A program made the position numbers and the translations under genes. DNA of 64,000 nucleotides from Candidatus Terraquivivens yellowstonensis (GTDB lineage: Archaea; Thermoproteota; Nitrososphaeria_A; Caldarchaeales; Wolframiiraptoraceae): NCBI GenBank assembly GCA_023539445.1, contig JAKCEW010000001.1, positions 139,484 to 203,483 of the forward strand. The letters are read 5' to 3'. Below, one piece after another: positions 54,165-63,756 of the stretch. Position 1 is the first letter of the stretch. Every line of letters starts with the position of its first letter. The notes beneath the pieces are model-generated. The model did not search any database. It saw nothing but the letters and a program-made list of their open reading frames with translations, and was not told the origin of the DNA.

Positions 54165-54953
54165 TTGGTAAGGTTTTCCTTAAGACGTATTCAAGAAAGG
54201 CTTGTCCCAAAATCCGAAAACCAAAGCCAAGGTAATATAGACACCCAAAATTATGAAATTCTGGTACAAAAGATTGAGGACTCTTTAACAAACCTGTCCG
54301 TCCAGGTTAATAAGCTACGGATGAGGTATCAGAATATGCTATCTAGAAGCAAAGAGTATTTTGAAAGATGTATAGATGCTTTAGTTGCTAGGGACAATGA
54401 AAGGGCCAAGATGTATGCTGTTGAAATAGTAGAAATAAAAAGGCTGGCTGACATAGTTGTGAGATGTTGCCTAGTCCTTGAGCAGATAAAGGTTAGGCTT
54501 GAAACAATATTAGAACTGGGCGAAGTGATGGGTCTGATAGTCCCATTAACCTCAATAATAGAGGCAGTTGAAAAGGAAGTATCGCTTGTCGTTCCCGAGG
54601 CATCGAATAGTCTCAGGGAACTCGCGGAGACCATAGAAGACTTCACTTCCTCATCTTCAGCATATGTTGATACAACACCGACCGGTGATGTTCAGATCAA
54701 TAAAGACGCAGAAAGCATCCTAGAAGAAGCAAGAAGAATAGCAGCAGAGCAGGTGAGGAAGAGCTTCCCAGAAGTGCCAGTTCTGACAGAAGAAGAACGC
54801 ATGGTTTACTCCTACATCATGAAGTGTGGTGATGAGTTAGACATAACAAAGTGTGCGTCAGAACTTGGACTTAATGTATCGCAAGTGAAGGTTGTTATAA
54901 GTAGCCTTCAAGAAAAAGGGTTAATAGAGGTGCAAAGTACCGAGATGACATGA
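54165..54953 (+). CDS. cdvB: ESCRT-III-like cell division protein CdvB (with C-terminal winged helix)
   Basis: N-terminal basic helix, Snf7-like charged helices, FPEVPVL linker, C-terminal wH EEERMVYSYIMKCGDELDITKCASELGLNVSQVKVVISSLQEKGLIEV; convergent with cdvC. Confidence 0.87.
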   Translation: MVRFSLRRIQERLVPKSENQSQGNIDTQNYEILVQKIEDSLTNLSVQVNKLRMRYQNMLSRSKEYFERCIDALVARDNERAKMYAVEIVEIKRLADIVVRCCLVLEQIKVRLETILELGEVMGLIVPLTSIIEAVEKEVSLVVPEASNSLRELAETIEDFTSSSSAYVDTTPTGDVQINKDAESILEEARRIAAEQVRKSFPEVPVLTEEERMVYSYIMKCGDELDITKCASELGLNVSQVKVVISSLQEKGLIEVQSTEMT

Positions 54954-54967
54954 AATATTTTAAGTTT

Positions 54968-56089
54968 TTAAGTTGCGTACTTGGCCGCCCATTCTTCCAA
55001 CTTCTTGAGGTTTTCCATAATTATTGATGACTTCCTCTTACTAATGACCTCTAAGAAATCCTGCATTTCTATCGCTCTAGGCTCCGTCTTTTCAGCGTTA
55101 CCTTCTTCAAAAAATTCCCTAGCGACCTTCAGTTGGACTTCCATACAAATATCGTGAATATCGGCCGCTGAATATCCTTCCGTCATGACTGCAAGTTGCC
55201 ATGTATCAACGGATTGGCCGAGTTTAAGGTCTTTGGTGTAGTAAGAAAATAAGGCAGCCCTAGCATTAAGATTTGGTAAAGGAACGTATATTCGCTTCTG
55301 AAAACGTCTGATGAATGGTTCATCAAGCATCCAAGGTTTATTTGTCGCTCCTATCACATACAAGTACTCCTTCTTACCCTTCTCGGTTAGACTATCCATC
55401 TCCTTTAGTAGCTGATTCCTTGCCCTAGCCTCACCGCCTACCTCGATATATCTAACAGATGTCAGCGAATCTATTTCGTCTATAAATATTATAGCTGCGC
55501 CCTGCTTTTTGCAAGCATTCCTAGCTGTCGCGAAAAGCTGTGCTATGTTTTTCTCGGACTCTCCCAACCATTTTGACATAACTGTTGCAGCATCCACGTA
55601 GAAGAATGCAGCATCCATTTCATTAGCAACGGCGGCGCCCACTAGTGTCTTACCGCAACCAGGAGGCCCAAATAACAGTATACCAGTAGGCCATCCTAAG
55701 GGGAATAATTCCGGCTTCAACTTTGGGTATACTATGCTTTCCCTTATCGCCCTCTTAACCTCGTCTATTCCTATTATGTCTTCCCAGTTAACTCTAGGCC
55801 TATCCTTAAGTATCCATTCAGTCCCCTCTTCAACACCGGCGGCCTTAGCATCCCCCTCAGAAACAATAACCCTTTTTGCATCTATAAGCTGAAGCCTTCT
55901 TTGGTATTCGCGAATCTTCTCAAGATACACCGAACGTATTGTTTCGTCTTCTGTCATGAAATAAAGTTTCGTCAGAATGTCAATAGTCTCTTTGTACTTT
56001 ACGTAGGCCTTTTCTTTTGCACCTATCCTATCTAAGTAAACGGCTTCCTTAGCCTTTTCAGCTGCCATTCTTTCAAGCTCGTTAAACAT
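54968..56089 (-). CDS. cdvC: Vps4-like AAA ATPase CdvC (MIT + AAA)
   Basis: MIT-like N-terminus; ILLFGPPGCGKTLVGAAVANE; IIFIDEIDSLTSVR; RRFQKRIYVPLPNLNARAALF. Confidence 0.95.
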   Translation of the reverse strand: MFNELERMAAEKAKEAVYLDRIGAKEKAYVKYKETIDILTKLYFMTEDETIRSVYLEKIREYQRRLQLIDAKRVIVSEGDAKAAGVEEGTEWILKDRPRVNWEDIIGIDEVKRAIRESIVYPKLKPELFPLGWPTGILLFGPPGCGKTLVGAAVANEMDAAFFYVDAATVMSKWLGESEKNIAQLFATARNACKKQGAAIIFIDEIDSLTSVRYIEVGGEARARNQLLKEMDSLTEKGKKEYLYVIGATNKPWMLDEPFIRRFQKRIYVPLPNLNARAALFSYYTKDLKLGQSVDTWQLAVMTEGYSAADIHDICMEVQLKVAREFFEEGNAEKTEPRAIEMQDFLEVISKRKSSIIMENLKKLEEWAAKYAT

Positions 56090-56244: not shown

Positions 56245-57579
56245 ATGATGGAACAGTACGAGGCAATTAAACGTCGACTCAAGTTCAGACGGGACCTGAT
56301 TCATAAGAAGCATGAGACTCCACAGTTGGAGAAAAAATGCCGAGAAGAGGGTCTAAATTTTCTATACAAACTCTCGGCCCTAGCTTTCTTGGTTAGTTTC
56401 AATAAACACCCCTCACTCAGGATGAGAAATACTCTGTCAACAATCTTGGAGCTTTTGGAAGTGTACGAATATATGCTACGCGGTCTATCTAGGAACCCGC
56501 TTTGTTTGAATTATGAGAGACTCCTCGGACTAGGCTACATGAAACGAAAGCACTGGGTATATGCCGCCTACATAGGCTTAATAAGCTCGCTACCGGTTTT
56601 GTACAAGGTTAGCCCTTACAACGACATTATCCGTGCAGCTATAGCAAAAACATCTTTTGGTACCAGCGTAAAACTGCTCGATAACCTAAATGATAACGTT
56701 CATGAGTTGGATGTAGCGCTTACATCTCTAAGAAATCTATTATCCGCCTACACTAGAGGTGTGTACGAGCCAAACGTAGATCGTGAGAATGAGGTGGCGA
56801 GAGCTGAGAATTCCGCATTAGAGATCGGGACTTGGATATACGCGATGATTAACGCGAATGGAAGCAAGCCGAACGATACGTTTGAAATCTACGTTAAAGA
56901 CGTCAGAAAATTAATAATGGGACAAATAGATTCTCTATCGCATAAGGATAAAAAAAGGAGCGAAATACCTACGATGAAAGATTACATGGAATATATTTTA
57001 GAGAAGAACATAGGCGACGTTTGGTTCGATATAGATCTCTGTTTCTTCGAGAAAGGATTAGGTGGTTTAACGTCCGGTGAAATGACGGCTCTCACGTTGG
57101 TGAAACAAGGTGTGTCATTAGTGTTCAAAGCGGCAGGATTATACGATGACGTCGTGGACGCTTACGATGATATAACATCGAACTCCATTAATAGTGCTAT
57201 ACTTCTCGCCATAGAAAGAGGTCTGTTATCGTATGATGATCTCCGTGTAATTGAACCAGCAAGGACTTTCAAAATACTTTCAAAGGCTGGAATTTTTAAC
57301 GATATAATTAGAATGGGTGACGCTATGCATGTAGCAGGTTTAAACATGATAAAGGAGGGTCTAAAATATCCAGTCGGTCAGCTTATAGATGGTGACGCGC
57401 TATTAAACATATGCGACTTCATCCGACTCTTTTCTATAAGAAAGTACTTGATAAGGGAGAAGAAATTCCGTCAATCGTTGGCATTTATAAGATCTCCAAA
57501 TCCATCCACTACGCTTCCGAAGGACTTAAGTTTGCTATGGAATACAATAAGAGAAAAATCCATGCAGGTGTGCCATTAA
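56245..57579 (+). CDS. All-helical protein, possibly a divergent class I isoprenoid-synthase-like protein
   Basis: Asp-rich motifs KLLDNLNDNVHELD and AAGLYDDVVDAYDDITSN in an all-alpha context; no other family recognised. Confidence 0.4.
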   Translation: MMEQYEAIKRRLKFRRDLIHKKHETPQLEKKCREEGLNFLYKLSALAFLVSFNKHPSLRMRNTLSTILELLEVYEYMLRGLSRNPLCLNYERLLGLGYMKRKHWVYAAYIGLISSLPVLYKVSPYNDIIRAAIAKTSFGTSVKLLDNLNDNVHELDVALTSLRNLLSAYTRGVYEPNVDRENEVARAENSALEIGTWIYAMINANGSKPNDTFEIYVKDVRKLIMGQIDSLSHKDKKRSEIPTMKDYMEYILEKNIGDVWFDIDLCFFEKGLGGLTSGEMTALTLVKQGVSLVFKAAGLYDDVVDAYDDITSNSINSAILLAIERGLLSYDDLRVIEPARTFKILSKAGIFNDIIRMGDAMHVAGLNMIKEGLKYPVGQLIDGDALLNICDFIRLFSIRKYLIREKKFRQSLAFIRSPNPSTTLPKDLSLLWNTIREKSMQVCH

Positions 57580-57642: not shown

Positions 57643-59085
57643 ATGAAAAAATTTTTTGTGGGGCACGAAATATTTGATGAAATAGCTGACATTTATTATG
57701 GCTCAGCGATACTTGTTTTGGATGACGGATACGGTGAAGCATTACGTCTTCTCATGAACTTGGTGAAGACCCAAAGACCAATGAGGTTAATGACCGGATG
57801 GACTCACTCGCCAGCGGAAAATGTGAGATTTATAACACCATCGAGTCTGAACGATGTAAGTATAGCAGTTAACGAATTGAGGAGAGGCGCCCAAGAGAGT
57901 GTGCTGATCCACGAATATTTGCCAGACATTTTAATAAAGTACGAGCATGACACAATATTGAAGCTGCTGGAAACATGGAAGCACGAAATACAAAACAACA
58001 GGACTGTTGAGTTCTACTTGCTACCAAAAGGAGCTTTTCCCGAGATGGAGAAAAAGATTCTGGCAATTTTTGATGGAGGTCTAGAAGTCAGGTTATCGCA
58101 TGCAAAAAGGTTGAGCGTGCACGAATTCGTACTTATAAAATGTTGTCGTCCAGAATGGAATTTAAGACCTGTGAGATACGAATACAAGGATGATAGAGTT
58201 TTGATAGAATGGTATGGCGAGATGACCGACAAGTTGATACGGCTCTCGCCCGAAATGGTGGACGAAAAAATAAGATATTATAAGGCGAACATCAACCGTT
58301 TGAAATTAAAAATAGTACGTAAAGAATTGACGGAACCTATTACGGAATACTTATGGCTTTTTTCATATTTCGATGACGCTTCCCTTCTTGACGTTAAGCT
58401 ACTCTTCCCTGAAAACTTCGATAATTTGTTAAAGAAAATAGCCGTCTGGGAATTACAAGGATACCTGCGCGTCATTGAGTTTGAAGGAGAACCAACTAAA
58501 TATATTGAGCCAGTAAAGAATGAGCAGATGAGTTTTAAGACGAGACTCGCTTTGAGATTGCCTCCATGGTTCTTCTTCAGATTTCTGGGCATAAAGGAAG
58601 GTGCAAGAGTTCCGGGTAGCGTTTATAACATAGAAGGAAAAGTCATGCTCGAATTCATAAAGAACTTGGTTTGTGGTGATGAGACCGAATACAAGGAGGC
58701 GATTGAAAGGTTGATGAAGATTAAGGAGGATTTTCATCAGATAATAGGTAGACAGAGGGCCTTAGAAGCAATTCGAGAAATAGGCGAAAACCCGATGAAG
58801 AAACTTGACGTGAAATACTTACCAAAAATAATGATGTTAACACTTTACTTCGGATTTAGGTTAAAATGCGAGGTGGAAACAGTCAGTAGCAATGTTTTCA
58901 GAGTAAGGGTTCCTGATTGCTTCCTTTGTAAAGACGCAGTATCTGAAATTCCAATATGCGCGGCCATTACTGGAGCTCTCTCAGGGGCAGCCTCTGTTGT
59001 ATTCAAGGAGCCAGTACATGCAAAAGAGATAAAGTGTAAAGCTACTGGGCATGATGAATGCGTATTCGAACTTAGGGTCGGTTAA
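57643..59085 (+). CDS. Degenerate RecA/KaiC-like domain + C-terminal V4R domain protein
   Basis: GSAILVLDDGYGEALRLLMNLV (Walker A lost); C-terminal V4R-like CAAITGALSGAASVVFKEPVHAKEIKCKATGHDECVFELRV. Confidence 0.65.
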   Translation: MKKFFVGHEIFDEIADIYYGSAILVLDDGYGEALRLLMNLVKTQRPMRLMTGWTHSPAENVRFITPSSLNDVSIAVNELRRGAQESVLIHEYLPDILIKYEHDTILKLLETWKHEIQNNRTVEFYLLPKGAFPEMEKKILAIFDGGLEVRLSHAKRLSVHEFVLIKCCRPEWNLRPVRYEYKDDRVLIEWYGEMTDKLIRLSPEMVDEKIRYYKANINRLKLKIVRKELTEPITEYLWLFSYFDDASLLDVKLLFPENFDNLLKKIAVWELQGYLRVIEFEGEPTKYIEPVKNEQMSFKTRLALRLPPWFFFRFLGIKEGARVPGSVYNIEGKVMLEFIKNLVCGDETEYKEAIERLMKIKEDFHQIIGRQRALEAIREIGENPMKKLDVKYLPKIMMLTLYFGFRLKCEVETVSSNVFRVRVPDCFLCKDAVSEIPICAAITGALSGAASVVFKEPVHAKEIKCKATGHDECVFELRVG

Positions 59086-59806
59086 TACCAATTATATTCA
59101 AAATATCCATGAGGTTTCTGGACTTGATGACATAGTGAGCGTTTTTCTTTACATGCCTTTTAGCAAGCCAGAGTATTAGACGTAATTTTGCTTGTTCAAA
59201 AGTATTCAATTTTAACTTTAGGAGTTCACGCTCTAAACATCCTGAGTCAAACATTATGCTTGTACCTACAAGCCTAAATAGCGGTATATTAGAAGCATCA
59301 TCTCCAATAGCGGCGCACTCGCTAAGCAAAATACCGTGCCGCGAGGCTATCTCGGAAAGGATTCTGCCCTTGTTCTCGAAGTTAACTATAGGGTGCTCTA
59401 TGTTAACAAAGACTCCGTTTTCGATCCTTACATGTGTACCAACAAAAAAATCAAGCCCAAGCCTCTTCCCCAAAATCTCCAGAAAATACTGAGAAGCGCC
59501 AGTGCTTATAGTTCCTACAATTATGCCCTTATCCTTCATAATCCTTACAGCCTCTTCTGCACCACGCATTAATGGAACTTGCATAAGCAAATTCTTAACG
59601 TATTCCTCTTTAACACCAATGAATAGTTGTAATGCTTTCTCCATCGCTTGATTAAAGTTTATTTTTGAGGTCACAAGGTCTTTATATATTGAGATAAGTT
59701 TATCACCGAAGCCAAGCCGCTCGGCAACGAAGATGGATACGTAACCATCAACCAAAACGCCATCACAATCAAACACGACGAGTTTAGGTATAGTTTTTCT
59801 TAACAC
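59072..59806 (-). CDS. HAD-superfamily phosphatase (SerB/PSP-like)
   Basis: KLVVFDCDGVLVDGYVSIFVAERLG; GTISTGASQYFLEILGKRLGLD; AAIGDDASNIPLFRLVG. Confidence 0.9.
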   Translation of the reverse strand: MLRKTIPKLVVFDCDGVLVDGYVSIFVAERLGFGDKLISIYKDLVTSKINFNQAMEKALQLFIGVKEEYVKNLLMQVPLMRGAEEAVRIMKDKGIIVGTISTGASQYFLEILGKRLGLDFFVGTHVRIENGVFVNIEHPIVNFENKGRILSEIASRHGILLSECAAIGDDASNIPLFRLVGTSIMFDSGCLERELLKLKLNTFEQAKLRLILWLAKRHVKKNAHYVIKSRNLMDILNIIGINRP

Positions 59807-62613: not shown

Positions 62614-63435
62614 TTACTCCCAACCCTTTGGGAGTTCGAGCTTGCCTTTTACGTGCCCCATTGGTATTAACTCCACTTTCTTTGAACTAGAAATCCCCAA
62701 TACCCCCTTTTTAACTAATGCCCTCCTGAGAAGTTGGATTGCCTTAGCAGGGTCGACACCTTTAGGACATACAGCGCTGCAGGAAGCTGCGAAGTGGCAC
62801 CTCCAGCAACCATGCTCGGAATCTATAGCCTCGAGCCTTTGCTCGAAGCCAAGGTCTCTAGGGTCAGAGATAAATCGGTATGCCCTATTCAGAATCATTG
62901 GTCCAAGGTAAAGTGGGTCCGTTGCAGAAACCGGACATGCAGAGCTACACATCCCACATTCTATACAATCAGCAAACTGAATATATCCTAGAAGTTCCTC
63001 CTCTGTCTGCTTATATGTTCCGGTTGGGTTCAAAAGTTCCTCTACGTCGTGCCTGATTATGTAAGGCTTCACCTGCTTTTCTTTCTGGAAAAGTTCACTG
63101 AAGTCTGTTACGAGGTCTTTGATGATGCGGTAATTCTTGAGCGGTGCGACTTTTATGACGTCGCTATTAAGCTCAAGGACTCTCGTGAAACAAGCAAGCA
63201 TCTGTCTGTCGTTGATCATCATACCACATGAACCGCAAACAGCCTGCCTGCATGAGTATCTAATGGTCAGTGTCGGATCCTGTTCTTCCTTTATCTTAAG
63301 CAAGGCATCGAGAACAGTCGTACTCTTGTTCACTTTTACCTTGTATTCTTGCCACCTCGGCACAAAGTCCGTCTTGGGATTGAACCTGAAAACCCTAAAC
63401 TTTACCTCAACCTCCTTATCGGTAGACATGCGCAC
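62614..63435 (-). CDS. sdhB: Succinate dehydrogenase/fumarate reductase iron-sulfur subunit
   Basis: IRYSCRQAVCGSCGMMINDRQMLAC; CIECGMCSSACPVSATDPLYLGP; CWRCHFAASCSAVCPKGVDPAKAI. Confidence 0.96.
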   Translation of the reverse strand: MRMSTDKEVEVKFRVFRFNPKTDFVPRWQEYKVKVNKSTTVLDALLKIKEEQDPTLTIRYSCRQAVCGSCGMMINDRQMLACFTRVLELNSDVIKVAPLKNYRIIKDLVTDFSELFQKEKQVKPYIIRHDVEELLNPTGTYKQTEEELLGYIQFADCIECGMCSSACPVSATDPLYLGPMILNRAYRFISDPRDLGFEQRLEAIDSEHGCWRCHFAASCSAVCPKGVDPAKAIQLLRRALVKKGVLGISSSKKVELIPMGHVKGKLELPKGWE

Positions 63436-63756
63436 TCACCCCACTGGCCAGAATAAGTTTAGGAAAACTTGTAGACCGTAAATGTATAGGGCTATGCCCA
63501 CTAAGAATATTATCCATGTTATGGCCTTTGCGGCACATCTTCCGGGTATTAGCTCTATGAGTATTGCCCTAACGCCGTTTAGCATATGATATAGAAGTGC
63601 TGATAACAAGATGATAAGGTTCAAAGGATACAAGATGCTTTCATGTATGGCGGTACCGATACCCGGGAGGTTGTTCGCTACTAGATGAATGAATCCTGTT
63701 ACCAGTATAATGAGACCAGAGACATAATGCAAGAACATCCTTTTTGACTCCTTCAA
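63436..63756 (-). CDS. Succinate dehydrogenase membrane anchor subunit
   Basis: Three TM; LLYHMLNGVRAILIEL heme-ligand helix; adjacent to sdhB. Confidence 0.85.
   Translation of the reverse strand: MKESKRMFLHYVSGLIILVTGFIHLVANNLPGIGTAIHESILYPLNLIILLSALLYHMLNGVRAILIELIPGRCAAKAITWIIFLVGIALYIYGLQVFLNLFWPVG

Follow-up and report, generated by a model that had tools for sequence, protein, structure and literature searches.

A RecA-like pseudo-ATPase fused to a V4R domain is paired with a predicted isoprenoid-synthase-fold protein across archaeal lineages

In the genome of Candidatus Terraquivivens yellowstonensis, a gene for a RecA-like pseudo-ATPase fused to a V4R domain (here c0) stands next to a gene for a protein with a predicted class I isoprenoid-synthase fold (c1), and the two genes occur together in several archaeal lineages. 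The predicted folds, conserved motifs, co-occurrence and neighbouring genes fit an isoprenoid-handling module, in which c1 would act on a prenyl diphosphate and c0 would bind an isoprenoid through its V4R domain. We see an even chance that the pair is a single unit of isoprenoid metabolism, with c1 a divergent class I synthase and c0 its dedicated non-catalytic partner. Positions are given in the window, the whole 64,000-nucleotide stretch of DNA that was analysed (Table 1).

Table 1. Features of the pair and its immediate neighbours, in window coordinates
Feature	Position	Strand	Evidence
CdvB (context only; genus-specific neighbour)	54165..54953	+	NCBIfam CdvB1/B2 6.5e-30, CdvB 1.2e-24; both below curated cut-offs
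CdvC/Vps4-like AAA ATPase (context only)	54968..56089	-	NCBIfam CdvC 3.3e-140, below curated cut-off
c1, class I isoprenoid/terpene-synthase-fold protein (predicted), 444 aa	56245..57579	+	AlphaFold2, Foldseek, co-occurrence with c0
c1 first Asp-rich motif KLLDNLND, residues 143–150, DNxxD replacing DDxxD	56671..56694	+	27 homologues; profile alignment to prenyl synthases
c1 second Asp-rich motif DDxxDxxxD, residues 301–309	57145..57171	+	Invariant Asp in 27 homologues
c0, pseudo-RecA/KaiC + winged-helix-like + V4R protein, 480 aa	57643..59085	+	ORF call, Pfam, AlphaFold2, Foldseek, motif scan
c0 N-terminal RecA/KaiC-fold domain without Walker A, about residues 1–222	57643..58308	+	Foldseek KaiC CI, motif scan, alignments
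c0 winged-helix-like stretch, residues 223–290, three helices then strand	58309..58512	+	DSSP of model; secondary structure only
c0 long helical linker, residues 298–380	58534..58782	+	AlphaFold2 model
c0 V4R domain, residues 420–478	58900..59076	+	Pfam E=3.9e-15, invariant columns, MJ1460 and MopR matches
SerB-like HAD phosphatase, convergent with c0, 14-nt overlap	59072..59806	-	Pfam Hydrolase 1.4e-13; neighbourhood

c0 joins a RecA-like fold without a P-loop to a V4R domain

The AlphaFold2 model of c0 has a mean pLDDT of 86.1 and a pTM of 0.65. Its N-terminal α/β half adopts a RecA-like core fold in this predicted model, with KaiC CI as the best Foldseek match (E=5.8e-8; target-normalised TM 0.61) and other RecA-family proteins also among the matches. 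The Walker A motif GxxxxGK[ST] is found in none of 31 c0 homologues, whereas the same motif scan finds it in all 11 of the KaiC-like ATPases encoded near the pair. In alignments, the P-loop position is held by a conserved LDExxxEA or similar sequence within a strand–loop–helix, and an invariant His (H90 in c0) closes the Walker B-like strand. Three helices and a strand follow at about residues 231–279, weakly modelled in places; by the DSSP assignment of the model, this part of c0 looks like a winged helix. No HTH family matched in any c0 homologue scanned.

The C-terminal V4R domain scores 56.1 bits against a Pfam cut-off of 31 (PF02830) and was matched in all 19 c0 homologues scanned. Six residues of the domain are invariant in alignments of the family (C426, C429, C439, E462, C465 and C473), and the V4R Cys/Glu signature is present in all 19 homologues checked. 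C439, E462, C465 and C473 stand at the zinc positions of MopR/DmpR/PoxR-type V4R domains. The spacing of C439, C465 and C473 (26, 8) is identical to that of the zinc cysteines of DmpR, Cys151, Cys177 and Cys185 (PMC7264223), and to that of C206, C232 and C240 of MaMsvR, conserved V4R cysteines implicated in redox-dependent DNA binding (PMC3729527). Given these residues and their spacing, the c0 V4R looks functional as a V4R domain, a kind of domain for which binding of hydrophobic ligands has been proposed or demonstrated (PMC2253512, PMC10933270).

Among the V4R proteins matched, a search with c0 reaches MJ1460 at E=5.3e-7, ahead of Thorarchaeota TRAPPC3 at E=0.0016; by this ranking c0 is not closer to TRAPP/Bet3 than to other V4R proteins. 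The c0-family profile matches MJ1460 at E=2e-5 and MopR at E=0.013, profile positions 426–472 falling on MopR chain positions 144–190. The MsvR model NF053755, which spans HTH and V4R, matches the V4R region of c0 at E=5.5e-11, with a score of 42.6 bits against a whole-protein cut-off of 220. The original prediction, made from the sequence alone, had described c0 as a KaiC/Rad55-like domain with a lost P-loop followed by a C-terminal V4R domain. Structure comparison, motif scan and Pfam bear out both halves, and ‘RecA-like pseudo-ATPase fused to V4R’ is a correct description of the protein.

c1 has a class I isoprenoid-synthase fold in its predicted model

The AlphaFold2 model of c1 (pLDDT 87.0, pTM 0.87) shows the all-alpha class I fold. 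Its best Foldseek match in the PDB is tolypothrichol synthase, a class I terpene synthase (E=6.6e-5); aristolochene and 1-epi-cubenol synthases also match, an archaeal GGPP synthase comes further down, and the 50 best matches listed are terpene and prenyl synthases. Both Asp-rich metal motifs of the class are present, the first as a variant of DDxxD. Across 27 homologues, K143, L145, D146, N147 and D150 of the first motif and D301, D302, D305 and D309 of the second are invariant, as are Q227, W260, D264, R394 and R399 elsewhere in the protein. A profile alignment to 30 canonical prenyl synthases covers 236 columns and is marginal (P=0.03); in it DNxxD falls on DDxxD, the GQ motifs coincide and the second Asp motif comes close to DDxxD, and in this weak alignment the Asp, GQ and K motifs run in the canonical order.

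Sequence models do not recognise the protein: c1 has no Pfam, NCBIfam or PHROG match, and a profile search against solved structures returned nothing at E<=10. For PF19086 (Terpene_syn_C_2) and PF00348 (polyprenyl_synt), neither of which c1 matches, the best single homologue reached 0.0095 and 0.061, respectively, short of the cut-offs. Counting against an isoprenoid module are the lack of a significant sequence-profile match to any solved synthase, the marginal profile alignment and the fact that the host genome already encodes three UbiA proteins besides two ordinary polyprenyl synthases. Judged by its predicted fold and motifs, c1 would be a divergent isoprenoid-diphosphate enzyme.

The two genes are conserved together

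Separate profile searches place c0 and c1 in an identical set of 16 of the 398 Thermoproteota genomes sampled, so that every c1-bearing genome among them also has c0. The 16 genomes fall into seven genera and, being related, represent fewer than 16 independent events. Named pair loci come from Terraquivivens, Caldarchaeum, HR01, Nitrososphaerales, Methylarchaceae, Bathyarchaeota and Hecatella; outside Thermoproteota, the distribution refers to sampled loci only. In the same family, 16 sister-genus genomes lack the pair.

Of the 27 mapped loci, 18 have the two genes side by side and 9 have a single gene between them; the order is tandem (15 loci), convergent (11) or divergent (1). The intervening gene encodes UbiA in four loci, all of them Caldarchaeum/HR01, a HAD hydrolase in three and a geranylgeranyl reductase, exceeding the TIGR02032 cut-off, in two; these labels come from a family scan of one or two members per cluster, extended by cluster membership. 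The predicted pairing of c0 with an isoprenoid-synthase-like gene thus proves to be conserved well beyond Terraquivivens; in the window, c1 lies upstream of c0 with a gap of 63 nt rather than the 64 nt first given. The main clades are the same in the c0 and c1 trees, with differing deep branches, and the two proteins remain together at 26–34% identity.

Exceptions come from c1 loci that have no c0 in the same stretch. Three of these are close to the end of a contig, and two of the three have c0 elsewhere in the genome. Two Theionarchaea genomes carry two copies of c1 and many small V4R proteins with no full-length c0, so c0 is not needed everywhere; in both, a UbiA gene directly follows one c1 copy, with no c0 nearby. 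The c0 profile gives 16–17 matches in each Theionarchaea genome (loci L067–L070), nearly all to its V4R end. A single-protein search of genome contigs with c0 gave no relatives. A phage origin is not indicated, a phage collection and PHROGs having given no match.

Neighbouring genes point to isoprenoid metabolism

Around the pair, the SerB-like HAD family recurs in 14 loci and KaiC-like ATPases with a Walker A motif in four lineages, and a UbiE-type methyltransferase gene adjoins c0 in the Caldarchaeum/HR01 group. Taken with UbiA and geranylgeranyl reductase, this recurrent company points to isoprenoid metabolism. Caldarchaeum loci also contain a separate TrmB-type regulator. Many UbiA-rich relatives lack the pair, so it is no general requirement for quinones.

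Some 4 kb from the pair, the window encodes B- and C-type subunits of succinate dehydrogenase (62614–63756), which hints at possible quinone use by the organism. Besides c0, the host genome yielded a single further V4R, located at a contig end (C5:241066-241224), about 5 kb from a gene for the complex I 49-kDa subunit, and Caldarchaeum c0 paralogues (L051:8551-9957 and L052:8682-10019) stand between two genes for NuoL/Mrp-type antiporter subunits.

The cdvB and cdvC genes beside the pair had been read as a possible link to ESCRT functions. As neighbours they are real, flanking the pair in all six Terraquivivens genomes; the functional link finds no support. No other lineage among the loci examined has a cdv gene beside the pair, and sister genera have cdvBC without it. 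The cdv neighbourhood is therefore a genus-level feature, an ESCRT role is unsupported, and we reject a Cdv role on this lack of conserved linkage. In the three sister-genus genomes examined (L201, L203 and L204), cdvB–cdvC lies beside thiolase and 3-ketoacyl-synthase-type genes, which, judging by sequence, resemble the opening steps of the mevalonate pathway. Even with this faint isoprenoid connection added to the adjacency in Terraquivivens, there is next to no chance that the pair works with CdvB and CdvC in membrane remodelling.

Proposed function and alternatives

From the domain make-up, predicted folds, motifs, co-occurrence and neighbourhood we infer an enzymatic activity for c1, a ligand for c0, physical contact between the two and an end product that is quinone-like or another prenyl lipid. 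In c1, DNxxD and DDxxDxxxD would hold a prenyl diphosphate together with Mg2+, and the protein would release an elongated or rearranged prenyl compound. In c0, the V4R would offer the hydrophobic substrate or product a pocket stabilised by zinc, and the RecA-like domain, deprived of the usual ATP binding, would serve oligomerisation or partner binding. In this way c0 would sense or carry a hydrophobic ligand within an archaeal pathway for prenyl lipids or quinones, either gating c1 or passing its product to a UbiA-type prenyltransferase; methylation by UbiE and saturation by geranylgeranyl reductase could then follow in some lineages. The UbiA and UbiE neighbours suggest a quinone as the end product, with other prenyl lipids equally possible.

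Other roles for c0 draw on the same V4R domain. Its likeness to MsvR keeps a regulator in play: c0 could be a one-component transcription factor of MsvR/XylR style, with the V4R sensing an isoprenoid or redox state and the winged-helix-like part binding DNA to control c1 and the pathway. The NF053755 match, the cysteine spacing shared with MaMsvR and the three helices and strand after residue 231 are what such a protein would show, but the whole-protein MsvR score is far off, HTH matches are absent from the homologues and Caldarchaeum loci have a TrmB-type regulator of their own. We consider a transcription factor unlikely and prefer a protein-partner role for c0, because the 1:1 co-occurrence is strict and convergent order, as in 11 of the 27 loci, is common, and both suit a partner better. 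A still poorer prospect is that c0 only carries lipids or prenyl groups, in the manner of TRAPPC3/Bet3 or BchJ, and has no regulatory role. TRAPP relatives with hydrophobic cavities do belong to the V4R family (PMC10933270), Thorarchaeota TRAPPC3 is within reach of c0 searches, and UbiA adjoins the pair in Caldarchaeum and c1 in Theionarchaea; a simple carrier would nevertheless leave the large pseudo-RecA and winged-helix-like parts of c0 unexplained.

The adjacency itself could also be hitchhiking, two unrelated genes spread together by transfer, as the patchy distribution and the sister-genus genomes without the pair might suggest. Yet adjacency persists through changes of orientation, every gene in between is an isoprenoid or HAD gene, and c0 and c1 have stayed together over a large divergence, which leaves this explanation a very slim chance. 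A partnership of c0 and c1 in isoprenoid metabolism is the reading that we carry forward. Its boldest form is one that we offer tentatively and would sooner doubt than assert: c1 would found a new archaeal family of class I prenyl/terpene synthases, in complex with a pseudo-RecA–V4R isoprenoid gate or carrier, and the two would define an undescribed pathway to a prenylated (quinone-like or terpenoid) membrane lipid common to Caldarchaeales, Nitrososphaeria, Bathyarchaeia and relatives.

The single domains are of known kinds. For the combination of V4R with a pseudo-ATPase, for the unlabelled synthase family and for the strict pairing, the databases and open papers that were searched gave no earlier description. 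Full-text searching of open-licence literature, judged by titles, counts and abstracts, brought up no account of the pair among papers dealing with terpene synthases of archaea or with V4R together with KaiC or isoprenoids. If the proposal is true, an isoprenoid enzyme family missed by current models would be added, V4R would gain a concrete lipid-linked partner in archaea, and the pair would offer an inexpensive way to flag an unknown lipid among uncultured archaea.

Comparison with known systems

c0 shares with KaiC, RadA and ArlH, RecA-superfamily ATPases (PF06745), a RecA-like fold by structure comparison; unlike them, it has no sequence-level match to the family, and the homologues tested have no Walker A motif. 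With the V4R family (PF02830: MJ1460, MopR/DmpR/PoxR, MsvR and TRAPPC3/Bet3), which is probably the prokaryotic root of a vesicle-tethering subunit of eukaryotes (PMC2253512), it has in common an above-cut-off domain, the zinc-type Cys/Glu residues and the cysteine spacing. What sets c0 apart is the fusion of its V4R to a RecA-like pseudo-ATPase; the AAA+ domain of MopR is absent, and no N-terminal HTH like that of MsvR is recognised. For c1, the known counterparts are the class I isoprenoid synthases, that is, terpene cyclases and trans-prenyltransferases (PF00348, PF19086), with which its model and weak alignment share the all-alpha fold, the two Asp motifs and the order of GQ and K, and from which it differs by DNxxD in place of DDxxD and by escaping every Pfam and NCBIfam model. 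Finally, archaeal UbiA, UbiE and geranylgeranyl reductase genes for lipids and quinones are neighbours of the pair in Caldarchaeum, Bathyarchaeia or Theionarchaea, but are unlinked to it in Terraquivivens.
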